In this document: piece after piece, positions 23,493 through 31,443 of the stretch
Numbering within the stretch: the stretch's first letter is position 1
How the letters are laid out: each line of letters starts with the position of its first letter
From: Hydrogenothermaceae bacterium
GTDB taxonomy: Bacteria > Aquificota > Aquificia > Aquificales > Hydrogenothermaceae
Assembly (NCBI GenBank): GCA_015519975.1
Contig: WIAL01000003.1
Coordinates: 1-36,667, forward strand
DNA length: 36,667 bases
Direction of reading: 5' to 3'
Position numbers and translations under genes: made by a program
Notes under the pieces: model-generated
What the model was told of the DNA's origin: nothing
What the model saw: only the letters and a program-made list of their open reading frames with translations
Database searches by the model: none

Positions 23493-24100
23493 TGGATAGA
23501 AAAAAAAGAATTCTTGAGATATTAAAAGAAAAAAATGAAGTTACTGCTAAAGAACTTGCAAACCTTTTTAAAGTTTCAGAAATGACTATTTATAGAGATA
23601 TAAAACAACTTGAAAAAACAGGTGAAATTATAAGGAAGCATGGTTCTATTCTTTTAAATACAAAGGAAAATAAAGACTCTAAAACAGTCGATACATGCCC
23701 AATTTGTGAGAAAGCTATAACAAGAGCACATCCTTATAAAATAGTTATAGAAGGTAAAAAAACTTTAGAAGCTTGCTGCGAGCATTGCGGATTTTTACTG
23801 CATCAAAAGTATGAAGATAAAGAAGTTTCAGCTATTACTTATGATTTTATTACAGAAAATCCTATCACTGCTTTTAATGCGTATTTTGTAGTTGGAAGTG
23901 ATGCACAGCCTTGCTGCAGCCCAAGTGTAATACCATTTTCTTCTAAAGAAATGGCAGAAAAATTTGCTAAAGGTTTTGGAGGTAAAGTTTTAAATTTTAT
24001 AGATGCTTATAATGAAATTGTAAACAGCATGAACCTTAATCTAAAAAGTTGCTGTTCAAACAATGTTCAATCAATCAAACTTTCTGATATTAAAAAATGA
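23489..24100 (+). CDS. DeoR-type HTH fused to Cys-rich NosL-like domain, candidate metal-responsive regulator
   Basis: The protein is 203 aa. Residues 4-55 are a DeoR-type winged HTH ([41 protein letters not shown]). The rest is unlike a DeoR sugar-phosphate sensor: it has nine cysteines, C70 and C73 (CPIC), C96, C97 and C100 (CCEHC), C142-C143 (PCCSP) and C188-C189 (SCCS). The segment around YFVVGSD...[24 protein letters not shown] resembles NosL-like copper-binding proteins. A thiol-binding metal sensor (copper or a similar soft metal) is inferred. It overlaps the hisB stop, and AAAGGAG lies upstream. The second ATG at 23492 is an equally good start. Confidence 0.72.
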
Positions 24101-25263
24101 TAAAGGGTTTCAATATAGCAAAACAGTATATTTACGCTGGAAATAATAAAGTAGAAGGATGTGAGCTTTTTTTTAGAGGTAAAAATAAACAGAATTTTTT
24201 CCATGCAACTTTAATCACTTTTAACTATTTAATTGAACATCTTAAATTGAATAAGTATGTATTTATAAATGTAGATAAACATTTTTTATTAAGTGATTTA
24301 CCTCAAGTTTTTCAGCAGGAAGGAAAAATTGTTTTTGAGCTTATGGAAGATATAGAAATTAATCAAAATATTATAAATAGAATAGAGAGTTTAAAGGAGA
24401 AAGGATTTTTATTTTCCATAAATAATTTTAACCTTATAAAACATGAAGATTTATTAAAGGTTTTAGATTTTGCAAAAGTAGATATAAAAGACGATGAGAG
24501 AATATTTAAAAATTTAAATGCTCTAAAATTAAATAATATAAAACCTATTGCTTTTAAAATTGAGAATGAGATTTTTTATAAAATTGCCCAAAAATTAGGT
24601 TTTGAGTACTATCAAGGGTACTATTTTTCTTATCCTGAAGAAGAAACTTTTAATTTGAAAGAAGAAAATCAAAAGCTTATTTTAAAGTTGATAAATGGAG
24701 TCGTAAGACAGGAGCCTATTAATAAAATAGAAGAATACTTTAAATTATCTCATAAATTGGTTACTGGCCTTTTAATTTATATTAACTCTGCATATTTTGG
24801 TTTCAGGTCAAAGATAGACTCTTTAAAAAGAGCTATTTCTATTTTAGGATATAAAAATTTAGAGAAATGGCTTCTTTTTCAACTTTTTTACAGTAATAAA
24901 AATTTAACTTTACTGCTAGAAAAGGCATCATTTAGAGGAAAGCTTTTAGAATTTATAACTGAAGATATTATGCCAGAATTAAAAGACAATGCTTTTTTAG
25001 TAGGTATGCTTTCTGTGATTGAGAAACAAAGCATTTTAAAAGAATTGGAGCTTGAGGATAAAGTGCTAAATGCTTTAATACATAGAGAAGGTTTATTAGG
25101 AGAACTTTTAACACTAATAGAAGAAAGTGAAAAGGGAAAATTTGAGAACCTGGAAAAGTTAATGGAAAAATATCATATAGATGCTAAAAAGCTTATGGAA
25201 TATGAATTAAAATCTTTTTCATGGTTTGAAAGGATGAAAATGGAAATTCAAAATGTTGGATAA
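24097..25263 (+). CDS. Degenerate EAL-HDOD signalling protein (YuxH-like)
   Basis: The protein is 388 aa. Residues about 8-180 match an EAL fold: GCELFFRG (E23) in place of the EALLR block, FINVD (N58), VFELMED (E81) and YYQGYYFSYP (Q173). The metal-binding DDFG is replaced by INNFNL (N109-N110), so phosphodiesterase activity is unlikely. Residues about 190-270 are an HDOD domain (KLINGVVRQEP; LIYINSAYFGFRSKIDSLKRAISILG). EAL-HDOD proteins of this kind bind or relay c-di-GMP signals. It overlaps the DeoR-like gene by 4 bp (ATGA) and the next gene by 11 bp. Confidence 0.85.
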   Translation: MIKGFNIAKQYIYAGNNKVEGCELFFRGKNKQNFFHATLITFNYLIEHLKLNKYVFINVDKHFLLSDLPQVFQQEGKIVFELMEDIEINQNIINRIESLKEKGFLFSINNFNLIKHEDLLKVLDFAKVDIKDDERIFKNLNALKLNNIKPIAFKIENEIFYKIAQKLGFEYYQGYYFSYPEEETFNLKEENQKLILKLINGVVRQEPINKIEEYFKLSHKLVTGLLIYINSAYFGFRSKIDSLKRAISILGYKNLEKWLLFQLFYSNKNLTLLLEKASFRGKLLEFITEDIMPELKDNAFLVGMLSVIEKQSILKELELEDKVLNALIHREGLLGELLTLIEESEKGKFENLEKLMEKYHIDAKKLMEYELKSFSWFERMKMEIQNVG

Positions 25264-26344
25264 AAGCCTTATTCTTGAGCTTTTACACTCTAAAAGATAC
25301 AAAGAGATTTTAAATATTGCAGAAAAAAATAAAAGTTATATTGAAATTCCTGTACATAAAGGGTTTCAAAGATATATTTATGAACGAAGAAACATTTTAC
25401 TTGAGCATATTTTTAAAAAGTATAAGCTGTCTCGTAAAAAGATTTATTTAAATAAAAAGTTAAAAAATTTGATTGTAAACCAAAAAAGGAATAAAAAATA
25501 TTTAAACTTTTACTTTTTGGTAAATCAATTTGGTTATATACCTAACTTAAATGGTTATGAAAGATTTCTGATAATAAATTATCTTTTATATAAAACAAAA
25601 AAAGAAAAACTATTTGCTCATCCTATAAAAGCTGTATTTTGTGATACCGAAATTGAATTTTCTTCTCCATTTTTTTCAAAATTATTGCTTTCTTTTGATG
25701 AAAACTACATTTGTAAGAAAGAAATATATGTACCTTTTAATAACTTTTTTAAAAACATTTTTTTAAATGCAGATATTTTAACATGGGACATACTTGTTGC
25801 TGCAGTTAATATAAATAATCTCAGCAGTGTTGTTAATTTATATAAGTTTACCAAACAAAAACTTATTTCTCCTACTTCGTTTAAGCAAATAGAACCGTAT
25901 AAAACAAGAGTTAATTTGTTAATTGAAAGATTTAATATAAATGAAAATTGGCTTAATCAAAACAATAAAGAGACTCATTTTTATGTACCATCTGAGTTTT
26001 ATTCTGTGGACTCTAAAAATGAATTTTTAAAAAGGGTTTTTTACTACATCTTTTACATAGGACAGATTAAATATCTAAAAAAAGATAAAAAACCTATAAA
26101 AATTATTTCTCTTCTTTCAAATAGTGGTGTTGATTTTCAAAGATTAAAAAATCAAAAAGGTTTTCCTTTTATTGAATATAAACTATTTAGTGCTTTAGAG
26201 AAAGTATCAGATTATTTTTCATTAGATATAAATGAAGATTATAAAAATTTTGAACAATTTCTGGAAAGTAAGATATATATATCTCCAACAAAGACTTATA
26301 GAGAATTTATTGGTAATGTATTAAAGAGAAAAAATGTTGTATAA
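25253..26344 (+). CDS. Hypothetical protein, basic, no recognised domain
   Basis: This 363-aa protein is rich in Lys, Asn, Phe, Tyr and Ile. I see no signal peptide, clear membrane span or known motif. The N-terminal 60 residues are basic and helical (KRYKEILNIAEKNKSY; YERRNILLEHIFKKYKL). The middle has an acidic/aromatic part around AVFCDTEIEFSSPFF. It overlaps the EAL-HDOD gene by 11 bp, with the SD inside that gene, so the two are likely made together. It may be a partner of the c-di-GMP proteins, but that rests on position only. Confidence 0.7.
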   Translation: MLDKSLILELLHSKRYKEILNIAEKNKSYIEIPVHKGFQRYIYERRNILLEHIFKKYKLSRKKIYLNKKLKNLIVNQKRNKKYLNFYFLVNQFGYIPNLNGYERFLIINYLLYKTKKEKLFAHPIKAVFCDTEIEFSSPFFSKLLLSFDENYICKKEIYVPFNNFFKNIFLNADILTWDILVAAVNINNLSSVVNLYKFTKQKLISPTSFKQIEPYKTRVNLLIERFNINENWLNQNNKETHFYVPSEFYSVDSKNEFLKRVFYYIFYIGQIKYLKKDKKPIKIISLLSNSGVDFQRLKNQKGFPFIEYKLFSALEKVSDYFSLDINEDYKNFEQFLESKIYISPTKTYREFIGNVLKRKNVV

Positions 26345-26450: not shown

Positions 26451-29009
26451 ATGAAAAAAATTACTCTTAAGAAGCTTCTTATTATATATGTCTTAGCTAT
26501 GTCATTGATTGTTTTTCCTTTCTTATATTTTGAAATAACAAAAATTTTTAATTCTTCATTTGAAAAAAATGCAACAGAAAATGCAAAATCTGTAGCAGAA
26601 CAAACCTTTAACTCTATGTTTCAAATTATGAAAAGAGGCTGGAGCAGGCAGGATTTAATTGAGTTTTTAAGTAGTATAAAAAATTCACAAAAGAATTATG
26701 ATATAGAAATCTACAGGACAGAGATTGTAGAAAAACTATTTGGAAAAATAAACCAGCCGTCTTTTGATAAAGAAATTCTTAAAACTATAAGAGAAAAGAA
26801 ATCTGTTATAAATAAAGAAAGTGGAATTTTACGATATATTATGCCATTAAAAGCAAAACAAGTATGTTTAAAATGTCATGTAAACGCAAAAATTGGAGAT
26901 GTTCTTGGAGTAGTGGAGGTTAAATATAACCTTGGTAAGTTTTCTTCATCTGCAGAAAAAGAGTTTTCTAAGGCTTTACTTCTTACTATTCCTCTGCCTC
27001 TAATTGTTGTTATTCTCATCGGATATTTCATAACTGAAAGAATAAAAACAGGTTTAAAAAAATTAAATGGAACAATAGAAGACATATCTGAGGTAGAAGA
27101 CTTTAAGAAAATATTAAAAGAAGACATTAACTTTATGTTTGATGAATTTAATGAGCTGTTTGAAGATATTAAAAAGATTGTACAGAAATTATGTGATATA
27201 GCAGTTGATAAAGAAATACTTGAGTTTGAGATAAAGCTTTTGGAAAAGTTTATATTAACATCTGATGTAATTAAAGACTGGAAAGAATACGTAATGATGT
27301 TGCTTGCAGAGATAAACAAAGTTATACCTACTTATAGTATATTTTCCATATTTAAAGAGGAAGGAGTATATGAAGTTGAAGTTTTTTGGATTGGAAAACC
27401 ATCCGATAAATTAAGAATAAAAGCAGAAGAAATACTTAAAGAGAAAATAAGAGAACATTTTGCTTTAAAGCATGAAGATATTCTGGAAATAAACCATAAC
27501 ATAGCTGAAAAAGACAAATGTATTTTAAATCTTAATAACAATGAAATAGATTATCAGGTGAAAACGCTATTTTTAGAAAATCCAAGAATAGGTGGAATTG
27601 TTGGTGTCGGTGTACAGCCAGATGTTAAGAAAGATAGGACAAAACTTCTTGTTATAGAAAGCGTACTATCTACATTATTAAATGTCGTAGGTTCAGTAAA
27701 GGCAATATACAAATATACAAAAGACCTTGAGTATTACGCTACAAGAGACCCATTAACAAACCTTTACAACCAGAGGGTTTTCTGGGAACTGGCAAATTAT
27801 GAAATAGAAAGAGCAAAAAGACATAATTATGAATTTTCTCTGCTTGTTATAGATTTGGATAATTTTAAATCTATAAATGATAGTTATGGTCATGACTTTG
27901 GAGACAAATTTTTAGTTGAAGTTGCTGACCTTTTAGAACATACAGTTAGACCTGGAGATGTTGTTGCAAGATATGGTGGTGATGAGTTTGTGATTATACT
28001 GCCTGAAACTAATTCAGAAGGAGCATATATTGTAGCAGAGAGAATATTAAAAACTGCCGAGAATTTCTTTGTAAGTGCTCCAGATGGAAAAAATCTTAAC
28101 CCAAGATTTTCAATAGGAATAGCAACTTATCCAAACCATGCAGACAATATAAAGGATCTTTTTTCTATAGCCGATACAATGATGTATAAAGCAAAGATAT
28201 GCGGAAAAGGTCAGGCAAAAATTCCAACGGAAGAAGATATAACAGAGTTTTTAGAAAAGGAGAATAAACTTAGCGTTGCCTTAATAGAAGCTATAAATAA
28301 TAAAAATATAATTCCTCATTTTCAGCCTATAATCAATGTAAAAAATAATAAAATAGAGGCCTATGAAGTTCTTAGCCGTATAGAAATTGATGGGGAGCTT
28401 GTATCTGCTGCAAGGTATATTGAAATAGCAGAAAAAACAGGACTTGTATTTAAAATGGATTTACTTTTAATGGAAAAAGCTTTTCAAAAATTAAAAAATA
28501 AGAAAGAAAAAATATTTATAAACTTGACTCCTAAAGCTTTGATAGTTTCAGATTATTTATCAAAAGTCAGAGAACTTATAAAAAAATATAACATCTCACC
28601 AGAAAGAGTGGTTTTTGAGATTACAGAAAGAGATACTATTAGAAATTTCTCTTTACTGGAGAAGTTTGTTTACCAATTGAAAGACATAGGGTTCAGATTT
28701 GCAATAGACGATTTTGGAAGTGGATTTTCATCATTTTACTATGTTAAGCAACTTCCAATAGACTTTGTGAAAATAGAAGGAGAATTTATAAAAAACTTGG
28801 TAAAAGATGAAAAAGATAAAGCTTTTGTAGAAAGTATAGTAAGTTTATGCCAGAAACTGGGAATAAAAACAATTGCTGAATTTGTTGAAGATAAAGACAT
28901 TCTTGATGCAGTTAAAGAATTACATATAGATTATGCTCAAGGATACTACATAGGAAAACCGCTACCTAATGTTATAGAGGAGGTTTCGGAAAGTGAAAAA
29001 GATATCTGA
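26451..29009 (+). CDS. Membrane c-di-GMP enzyme: CxxCH sensor domain-GGDEF-EAL
   Basis: The protein is 852 aa: TM1 (about 8-27), a periplasmic domain (about 30-165) with a heme-c motif C139-x2-C142-H143 (DUF3365/Tll0287-like), TM2 (about 175-194), a helical and GAF-like linker (200-425), GGDEF (430-590) and EAL (605-845). GGDEF is intact (RYGGDEF, 508-513) with the RxxD product-inhibition site (R500, D503). EAL has E639 (YEVL), N691, E723, DDFGSG (753-758), K774, E810 and Q830, so it may be active as a phosphodiesterase. A bifunctional redox or gas-responsive enzyme is inferred. AGGGA precedes the ATG. It overlaps the next gene by 17 bp. Confidence 0.87.
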   Translation: MKKITLKKLLIIYVLAMSLIVFPFLYFEITKIFNSSFEKNATENAKSVAEQTFNSMFQIMKRGWSRQDLIEFLSSIKNSQKNYDIEIYRTEIVEKLFGKINQPSFDKEILKTIREKKSVINKESGILRYIMPLKAKQVCLKCHVNAKIGDVLGVVEVKYNLGKFSSSAEKEFSKALLLTIPLPLIVVILIGYFITERIKTGLKKLNGTIEDISEVEDFKKILKEDINFMFDEFNELFEDIKKIVQKLCDIAVDKEILEFEIKLLEKFILTSDVIKDWKEYVMMLLAEINKVIPTYSIFSIFKEEGVYEVEVFWIGKPSDKLRIKAEEILKEKIREHFALKHEDILEINHNIAEKDKCILNLNNNEIDYQVKTLFLENPRIGGIVGVGVQPDVKKDRTKLLVIESVLSTLLNVVGSVKAIYKYTKDLEYYATRDPLTNLYNQRVFWELANYEIERAKRHNYEFSLLVIDLDNFKSINDSYGHDFGDKFLVEVADLLEHTVRPGDVVARYGGDEFVIILPETNSEGAYIVAERILKTAENFFVSAPDGKNLNPRFSIGIATYPNHADNIKDLFSIADTMMYKAKICGKGQAKIPTEEDITEFLEKENKLSVALIEAINNKNIIPHFQPIINVKNNKIEAYEVLSRIEIDGELVSAARYIEIAEKTGLVFKMDLLLMEKAFQKLKNKKEKIFINLTPKALIVSDYLSKVRELIKKYNISPERVVFEITERDTIRNFSLLEKFVYQLKDIGFRFAIDDFGSGFSSFYYVKQLPIDFVKIEGEFIKNLVKDEKDKAFVESIVSLCQKLGIKTIAEFVEDKDILDAVKELHIDYAQGYYIGKPLPNVIEEVSESEKDI

Positions 29010-31443
29010 CAAAGTTTTAAAGGATATATTTAACCAGTTTTACCAGATAATTTTGTCAAATGACCATCTAAGGATTTTTTTTAAAGATGAAGAACAGGTA
29101 AAACAGGTTATTGAAAAGCAAATAGATAACATAAAGTCAGCACTAAAAGAAGATGAAGAAGCTCTAAAAAACAGATTTGTAAAAGTTGGCAAACTTCATT
29201 TTGACATAGGCGTTCCTTTTTATAGCTTTATATTTGCTTTCAATATTTTACATAACCTTTTTAAATCAAGCGTAGAAGTAAAAGAGTTAGATAAATTTTT
29301 TAGCATAATAAAAAATTATGCGGCAAAAGGATATTTATTATCTTATATAGATAAACATGCCAACATTCTTATTCCATTTTATATAGACCTGAAAAAAGAA
29401 AAGGTAAAAGAAAACGATTATGAAGGATATTTAGAAATGCATATATTCTTTATGCTGAATTTAACTTCTGCTATAAAAGAAAAAAATTATGATTTTCCTG
29501 TTATAGATGCAGAAGAATGTCCTTTTGATTCATGGCTTAATACAAAGGAAGCAAGAGAACTTTTAAAGGAGGATTACTCTTTAGTTAACATTTCCCACAA
29601 AAAAATTCATAAACTTGCAAGAACTTTATTAAAATCTCTAAGCAGTAAAGATTATATCTTGGGCGTTAATCTATACAATGAAATTATGGATTCTTCTCTC
29701 ACAATTCTTTCCTATATAAGAGCTCACAGAGAAAGTATATTACTTGAGAAAAAAGGCAAACTTCAAAATATTGTCAGGAAACTAAGAAAACTTTCTGAAC
29801 ATGATGTTATAACTGGACTTCATAATGAAGTCAGACTTTCCAAAATCCTAAATATACAGTTAAGAACTAAGAAAAAATTTTTTATTGCTGCTTTTGATGT
29901 TGATGATTTTAGATATGTAAATCAAGTTTACGGATTTAAGATTGGTAATCTTCTTTTAAAACAAATGGCTGATGTAATTAAGCAAGAATCACAAAATAGA
30001 AAAATATTTAACTTTAAAATTGGAAGTAATACATTTATTTCTATTATTTTTGAAAAAGATGCTCAAGACTTTATAAAAAGACTAAAGAAAAAAATTGAAA
30101 ATATAGAAGTTGAAACAAAAATAGAAGGTCATTCTGTTAAATTCTTTCCGAAAATAACAACCGCATACATGAGAATAGACGAAATAAATAGTTTTACTTC
30201 ACCAGATGAAGTAATAGAAACATTAGAAATTGTTTTACATAGAGGTAAAATAGAAAATAGAGGGGGTATTGTTGAGTATAATCCGGAAATTGATTCAAAA
30301 CTTGAAGTAGCAAAGCTACTTGATAAACAGATTTTCTTAGGATTTGCCATAAAAGAAGAAAAAATAGTTCCTTATTTTCAGCCTATTTTTGATTTAAACA
30401 CAGGTAAAATTTTTGCCTATGAAGTTTTGTTTAGGATAGAAGATAACGGTAGAGCCCTACCAGCAGGTGATTACATAGATGTGGCTTATAAAACTGGACT
30501 TATTGTAGAAATTGACAAAGCTGTTCTTAATTATTTAAAAGGCAATTTAGATAAATTAGAAGGGTTTAATCTTTTTATAAACATTTCCGCTCCATTTGTT
30601 AAGGATAAGGATTTTTTAGAATTAACACCTGACATTTGTAATTGTGTATACGAAATAACAGAGCAAATAGCTGTAGATAATATTGATAAATTAAAAAATC
30701 TTGTAAAAAACTCTAATGTTAAAATGGCTCTGGATGATTTTGGCTCTGGATATTCTTCTATAAAGACTGTTGTAGAGCTTACAACAGGAGGTGTAATAAA
30801 TTATCTGAAAATAGATGGCTCTTTAATAAAAGATTTAAATAAAAGTAAAGAAAATTTTTATATAGTTGAAAGTGTCGTGAAAATGGCAAAAACTTTAGGG
30901 TTAAAAACTGTTGCTGAATTTATTGAAAATGAGGAAATATTAAAAACAGTAAAACAGCTTGGAATAGACTATGCTCAAGGATTTTATTTAGGAAAACCTA
31001 AGCCTTTATCAGAAATTGTTATGCTTGAACATTTTTATAATAGAGAGTACTTTTTGAAACAGTTAAAAAGGGAACTCGCAAGAGTAAAAAGATACAAAAG
31101 GAATCTAAGTATATTGAGAATAGATATAAAGAATAATGTGCCTGATGATGATATTTTTATTTTTGCAGAAAGCATATCAAACAACCTGAGGATAACCGAC
31201 CTTTTTGTCAAATGGGATAAGCATACACTTTTAATAGCTGCCCCAGAAATAAGTAAGGAAAATGCAAAAGGCATTAAAAGAAAAGTTTTAAACCTATCTA
31301 AAGAACTATCTAAAAAGAATGAAATTACTCCTGTAGATATATCAACTGAAATTTTTGAAATAACTCCAGAAACAAAAGTAGAAAATGAGAAGGAAGTTAT
31401 AGATGGTGTGTTAGGAGAGTTTAAGTTTGAAGAAAAAGTATGA
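28993..31443 (+). CDS. Soluble c-di-GMP protein: globin-like-CZB-like-degenerate GGDEF-EAL-degenerate GGDEF
   Basis: The protein is 816 aa. Residues 1-130 resemble a globin-coupled sensor, with KVGKLHFDIGVPFYSF giving candidate proximal His H69. Residues about 145-245 match the zinc-binding CZB layout: H150, C176 (ECPFDSW), H202 and H206 (H-x3-H). A first GGDEF fold (268-430) has lost its motif (FKIGSNTFISI). EAL (455-670) keeps E477 (YEVL), N530, E554, DDFGSG (581-586), K606, E642 and Q662. Residues about 680-775 look like a second, eroded GGDEF (VKRYKRNLSILRIDI; DLFVKWDKHTLLIAAPE). It is likely a c-di-GMP phosphodiesterase controlled by gas and/or zinc. The start is GTG with GAGGAGG 9 nt upstream. 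It overlaps the previous gene by 17 bp. Confidence 0.8.
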   Translation: MKKISDKVLKDIFNQFYQIILSNDHLRIFFKDEEQVKQVIEKQIDNIKSALKEDEEALKNRFVKVGKLHFDIGVPFYSFIFAFNILHNLFKSSVEVKELDKFFSIIKNYAAKGYLLSYIDKHANILIPFYIDLKKEKVKENDYEGYLEMHIFFMLNLTSAIKEKNYDFPVIDAEECPFDSWLNTKEARELLKEDYSLVNISHKKIHKLARTLLKSLSSKDYILGVNLYNEIMDSSLTILSYIRAHRESILLEKKGKLQNIVRKLRKLSEHDVITGLHNEVRLSKILNIQLRTKKKFFIAAFDVDDFRYVNQVYGFKIGNLLLKQMADVIKQESQNRKIFNFKIGSNTFISIIFEKDAQDFIKRLKKKIENIEVETKIEGHSVKFFPKITTAYMRIDEINSFTSPDEVIETLEIVLHRGKIENRGGIVEYNPEIDSKLEVAKLLDKQIFLGFAIKEEKIVPYFQPIFDLNTGKIFAYEVLFRIEDNGRALPAGDYIDVAYKTGLIVEIDKAVLNYLKGNLDKLEGFNLFINISAPFVKDKDFLELTPDICNCVYEITEQIAVDNIDKLKNLVKNSNVKMALDDFGSGYSSIKTVVELTTGGVINYLKIDGSLIKDLNKSKENFYIVESVVKMAKTLGLKTVAEFIENEEILKTVKQLGIDYAQGFYLGKPKPLSEIVMLEHFYNREYFLKQLKRELARVKRYKRNLSILRIDIKNNVPDDDIFIFAESISNNLRITDLFVKWDKHTLLIAAPEISKENAKGIKRKVLNLSKELSKKNEITPVDISTEIFEITPETKVENEKEVIDGVLGEFKFEEKV

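Follow-up and report, generated by a model that had tools for sequence, protein, structure and literature searches.

The gene at positions 28993 to 31443 probably encodes a c-di-GMP-degrading enzyme under the control of a likely heme-based (gas) sensor and a likely zinc/oxidant sensor, as judged from its sequence. It lies in a 36,667-nucleotide stretch of a Hydrogenothermaceae (Aquificota) bacterium contig (WIAL01000003.1), hereafter called the window. We read the protein as a cytoplasmic c-di-GMP phosphodiesterase whose tandem N-terminal head gates the enzyme in response to heme-gas and zinc/redox signals, and we give this reading a probability of roughly 0.6. That the two inputs form a gas/metal AND/OR gate on c-di-GMP breakdown is speculation.

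Gene and domain architecture

28993..31443, + strand: whole gene, encoding globin, CZB, predicted dead GGDEF, EAL and predicted dead GGDEF in this order (ORF translation, Pfam)

The open reading frame encodes 816 amino acids and starts with GTG. Just five more codons are open upstream of this start, which rules out a longer N terminus. From N to C terminus, the modules are a globin (residues 1–135), a CZB domain (about 143–240), a GGDEF (262–430), an EAL (446–675), and a second GGDEF (684–795). An earlier note, made from the sequence alone, had proposed such a five-module c-di-GMP protein, and Pfam, segment searches, profile alignments, AlphaFold2 (AF2), and Foldseek all bear this out. The profile search that it had suggested (PF11563, PF13682, PF00990, PF00563) gave a mixed result. 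In the full protein, EAL was found at 3.4e-46 and GGDEF at 4.8e-22 in two stretches, while Protoglobin and CZB remained below the gathering cut-offs. Taking the full protein and the isolated segments together, each module scored better than chance in Pfam, with globin and CZB slightly below the curated thresholds. AF2 modelling of residues 1–260 plus one relative reached a pLDDT of 83. The AF2 model of the full-length protein was poor (pLDDT 60.5) and was used solely for the secondary-structure pattern at the C terminus.

The globin segment

28993..29397, + strand: globin-coupled-sensor-like domain, residues 1–135, helices B, C, E, F, G, and H (Pfam, DosC profile match, AF2, Foldseek)
29041..29043, + strand: Y17, aligned with the distal Tyr43 (B10) of DosC (profile alignment)
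29197..29199, + strand: H69, aligned with H98 of DosC, its proximal heme ligand (profile alignment, AF2)

Protoglobin (PF11563) was matched over residues 5–98 of the full protein at 5.2e-4, with 20.5 bits against a cut-off of 25. The isolated globin segment gave 3e-5, and in a six-frame genome scan the score was 25.8, above the 25-bit cut-off. A head profile built from residues 1–250 of the protein and five relatives gave a match to the DosC globin of E. coli (4.5e-5), which placed Y17 on Y43 and H69 on H98, the proximal heme ligand. Tyr43 and Leu65 are given as distal-side residues of DosC (references in PMC8846402).

The AF2 helices of this part (6–22, 24–27, 33–51, 55–71, 76–93, and 97–135) can be read as helices B, C, E, F, G, and H, without A. 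In the model, H69 falls close to the end of helix F (55–71), as the proximal histidine of globin-coupled sensors should be. A globin fold near residues 1–130 had been anticipated in the earlier note, and the model supplies helices B to H; the fold is incomplete in that A and pre-A are absent. Correspondingly, positions 1–28 of the Protoglobin model are unmatched, the match begins at 29, and the first modelled helix is B-like. When the AF2 model was compared with the PDB by Foldseek, the top five matches were sensor globins (AfGcHK, DosC) with probabilities of 0.97–1.00, at weak E-values of 0.34 at best. We infer that the globin would bind heme, with H69 as the predicted ligand.

The CZB segment

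29419..29712, + strand: CZB domain, residues about 143–240 (Pfam, alignment with DgcZ 3T9O, AF2)
29440..29442, + strand: H150, predicted zinc ligand 1 (alignment)
29518..29520, + strand: C176, predicted zinc ligand and redox cysteine (alignment)
29596..29598, + strand: H202, predicted zinc ligand (alignment)
29608..29610, + strand: H206, predicted zinc ligand (alignment)

CZB (PF13682) was matched over residues 150–212 of the full protein at 5.8e-5, with 23.8 bits against a cut-off of 29.4, and the isolated segment came closer (2.4e-6, 28.3 bits), still below 29.4. The head profile matched DgcZ (3T9O) weakly (E 0.08), with the four metal ligands in register. H69, H150, C176, H202, and H206 are present just as the earlier note had named them, and in the alignment with DgcZ, the last four follow the 3His/1Cys ligand order of CZB domains. 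The DgcZ spacing that had been proposed along with them needs correction, since the intervals in DgcZ, as counted in the alignment, are about 30, 27, and 4 residues (H22, C52, H79, H83) versus 26, 26, and 4 here. The cysteine motif of CZB domains is CX(L/F)GXW(Y/L) (PMC8262984). Its counterpart here, CPFDSWL, has Asp in place of the near-universal Gly and fits at the other positions; a sister clade has CNLGRWF and similar motifs. The AF2 helices 143–162, 177–182, 185–217, and 221–258 would suit a CZB bundle, and no CZB structures were among the 50 PDB matches that Foldseek listed for the model. From the ligand set, we infer that the domain would bind zinc through H150, C176, H202, and H206.

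Globin-CZB heads in Aquificota

The protein is not isolated: N-terminal globin-CZB tandems are present in about 60 proteins of Aquificota, and of 136 genomes of this phylum, 61 gave matches to the globin-CZB profile. In sister proteins, globin and CZB lie in a single reading frame and both score above their Pfam cut-offs (e.g., G023:C2, with a CZB score of 37.7 versus 29.4, G032:C26, and G030:C2). This removes most doubt about the architecture and rules out a chance origin of the globin and CZB calls. We aligned 62 family members: 39 with EAL, 19 complete ones without EAL, and 4 fragments or incomplete frames.

Retention of the two sensor sites differs within this family, which bears on whether gas is sensed at all. 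A phosphodiesterase gated by zinc or redox state only, with the globin as a vestigial, heme-free dimerization scaffold and the CZB as the sensor, appears rather unlikely to us. It can draw on the CZB ligand quartet, complete in 52/62 members versus a histidine equivalent to H69 in 16/39 of those with EAL, and on the missing A helix. It can also draw on the closest intact homologs, the Persephonella-group proteins L003/L032 and L002/L031, from which H69 is absent: one close ortholog has Ile at this position, and most of the N terminus is gone from the other. In L031, little of the globin is left, and Gln replaces H202. Against this, the window protein has kept both H69 and Y17, and the heme histidine is present in 14 of the 19 cyclase-type members. 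Moreover, its globin is 33–39% identical to that of the Persephonella 657-aa clade, in which the heme residues are intact, and this exceeds the identity of its CZB to that of any relative compared.

The same globin is 23% identical to that of an ortholog. We considered a domain swap with the 657-aa clade as the source of the globin and rejected it, because faster decay in the orthologs explains the identities equally well. The tree of the head also counts against a swap, as it groups the window protein with its orthologs at 98% SH-aLRT. Compared with the orthologs in G028 and G030, the GGDEF and EAL domains are 60–64% identical (60–63% for the first GGDEF alone), while the globin and CZB regions are 23–33% identical. 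Together with the residues lost in the orthologs, this indicates a rapidly changing head in front of a dead GGDEF and a live EAL that are both conserved.

Output domains

29776..30282, + strand: first GGDEF, residues 262–430, predicted catalytically dead (Pfam, alignment)
30022..30036, + strand: GSNTF in place of GGDEF, residues 344–348 (alignment)
30328..31017, + strand: EAL domain, residues 446–675, full catalytic set (Pfam, alignment)
31042..31377, + strand: second, shortened GGDEF, residues 684–795, KWDKHTL in place of RYGGDEF (Pfam, AF2 secondary structure)

Active diguanylate cyclases (PF00990) carry GG(D/E)EF, and the two sites here have GSNTF and DKHTL. Both motifs are thus eroded, as had been claimed, with GSNTF and WDKHT standing at the GGDEF sites. 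The C-terminal 141 amino acids alone matched Pfam GGDEF at 4.4e-10 (40 bits, above the cut-off), and the helices and strands in the C-terminal part of the poor full-length AF2 model follow the order expected of a shortened GGDEF. Among the members aligned, this second GGDEF occurs in the window protein, with traces left in one relative (G040).

The EAL catalytic residues (PF00563) are all present, in agreement with the earlier note (E477, N530, E554, E557, D581, D582, K606, E642, and Q662), and this set is invariant across 14 relatives. A dead cyclase next to a live phosphodiesterase is therefore the reading that the sequence supports. As the first dead GGDEF is as well conserved as the EAL, it may well have a structural or regulatory role.

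EAL-type c-di-GMP receptors usually lose their catalytic residues, and dead GGDEFs occur beside EAL in known GGDEF-EAL receptors. A LapD- or FimX-like receptor in place of an enzyme would account for the two dead GGDEFs on either side of the EAL as usual companions. We regard it as very improbable, because the metal and catalytic residues are all present here and in every complete EAL member of the family. That the gene is a decaying sensor with little present function is hardly credible: its homolog in G040 is a broken remnant with traces of the second GGDEF, the ortholog heads are eroded, and the C-terminal GGDEF is shortened, but all 816 codons are open, the first GGDEF and EAL have kept their identity to the orthologs, and no catalytic or zinc residue has been lost.

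Across the family, the GGDEF is dead in 39/39 EAL members and an intact GGEEF is found in 19/19 complete members without EAL. The EAL catalytic residues are kept in 38 of the 39; the remaining member is an incomplete reading frame. One globin-CZB sensor thus seems to be wired to opposite outputs. The tree of the head has only about two switches of output type, which points to few old events and not to many independent ones. A Fisher test for association between dead GGDEF and EAL (p 2e-12) was set aside for this reason, as the members are not independent. Cyclase-type and phosphodiesterase-type members often occur in one genome (e.g., G007, G023, G030, G026, and G028). We propose tentatively, at somewhat less than even odds, that Aquificota use globin-CZB as a dedicated sensor with two inputs, gas and zinc/oxidant, and that its paralogs carry either an active cyclase or an active phosphodiesterase with a dead cyclase domain, so that the same cues would act on opposed enzymes in one cell.

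Neighbouring genes

26451..29009, + strand: upstream partner, a membrane protein with a Tll0287-like/heme-c-type sensor (CLKCH) and intact GGDEF and EAL (ORF, Pfam)

The upstream gene (26451–29009) and the window gene (28993–31443) overlap by 17 bases, and the two are thus probably co-translated. The sensor of the upstream protein is also Mcp40H-like and holds CLKCH, a heme-c-type motif. The pair is kept in three relatives; G028 and G030 have the two genes side by side. In these two genomes of the Persephonella group, the pair is followed by a gene for a soluble MCP-CZB (TlpD-like) chemoreceptor (L031:3976-5307, L032:4720-6000), which ties the cluster to chemotaxis there. Further upstream in the window, 24097–25263 encodes an HDOD protein whose EAL is partial and degenerate and which is likely to be one more c-di-GMP-related regulator. 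It overlaps by 11 bases with a gene for a 363-aa protein (25253–26344), for which no Pfam match was found at 1e-4.

Proposed mechanism

For the gas- and zinc-gated phosphodiesterase, the following course can be envisaged. Heme would be held by H69 with Y17 at the distal side, and the globin would report O2 or another diatomic gas. The CZB domain, with zinc on H150, C176, H202, and H206, would report the zinc level or the oxidation of C176. The packing of the helical head would shift when gas binds the heme and when the CZB takes up zinc or its cysteine is oxidized, and the long helix 221–258 would carry these changes into the dead GGDEF. The latter could serve as a dimerizing or regulatory spacer through which the EAL dimer is opened or closed, and the state of this dimer would set the rate at which c-di-GMP is converted to pGpG. 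Binding of O2 to a globin can stimulate phosphodiesterase activity, as described for DcpG and the Vibrio GCS-HD-GYP protein (PMC10882959), and zinc on the CZB of DgcZ can inhibit the output enzyme (PMC8846402, PMC8262984). The two proteins, if co-translated as is probable, would adjust the same c-di-GMP pool, as DosC/DosP (DgcO/PdeO) do in E. coli. At the level of the family, globin-CZB heads on an active-looking cyclase or phosphodiesterase would give opposite outputs from related inputs.

Comparison with known systems

The earlier note knew of no other protein that combines gas and zinc sensing with a phosphodiesterase between two dead cyclase folds. This uniqueness does not hold, since AFE_1712 is a Protoglobin-GGDEF-EAL-CZB protein conserved through the Acidithiobacillia (PMC6416229), and globin is among the domains reported in CZB proteins by a CZB census (PMC8262984). 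The presence of globin, CZB, GGDEF, and EAL in one protein is thus already known; here, the domain order is another one and the family belongs to the Aquificota. In the order described for the AFE_1712 type, CZB is C-terminal, after the EAL, whereas in the window protein it lies between globin and GGDEF, and a dead GGDEF is added at the C-terminal end. Our search of the open-licence literature turned up no paper that describes the N-terminal globin-CZB tandem or its opposite-output use in Aquificota.

DgcZ (YdeH): In this E. coli protein, CZB likewise precedes GGDEF and the 3His/1Cys ligands have the same order. Unlike the window protein, DgcZ lacks globin and EAL and is active as a cyclase, and the Gly of its Cys motif corresponds to Asp here.

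DosC/DosP: This O2-sensing couple of E. coli resembles the present case in having a globin-coupled sensor act on c-di-GMP and a GGDEF-EAL output in DosP. However, DosC has neither CZB nor EAL, and DosP senses through a PAS heme domain.

DcpG: This protein of Paenibacillus dendritiformis is a globin-controlled GGDEF-EAL with phosphodiesterase activity in the O2-bound form. Both of its catalytic domains are active, and no CZB is mentioned where it is cited in PMC10882959.

GCS-HD-GYP: This c-di-GMP phosphodiesterase of Vibrio fluvialis is also under globin control, with HD-GYP instead of EAL, and no CZB is mentioned for it (PMC10882959).

Bacteria often put one sensor before one c-di-GMP enzyme, and the combination of cues is poorly known. 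The family offers natural pairs in which homologous globin-CZB heads precede an active-looking cyclase and an active-looking phosphodiesterase, frequently within a single genome, and natural variants that keep the zinc site and lose the heme histidine. Signal integration and sensor loss hence become directly testable in a heat-loving bacterial lineage.

Further globin loci

One viral scan and two plasmid scans found no relatives in viral sequences or plasmids, and a scan of genome contigs gave one locus, L046 of Persephonella. There, a member of the 656–659 aa globin-CZB-GGDEF-EAL clade is found between atpD-like and tsaD-like genes (L046:2370-6882). The genome of the window also has other globin loci. 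A small contig (L132:263-640, − strand) carries a 125-aa globin fragment that resembles cyclase-type heads and ends abruptly, either a misassembly or a gene remnant. L133:226-2874 (− strand) encodes a Protoglobin-PAS-GAF-GGDEF-EAL protein of 883 aa. L131:434-1330 (− strand) encodes a Protoglobin-PsiE membrane protein, and globin proteins of similar size are widespread in relatives.
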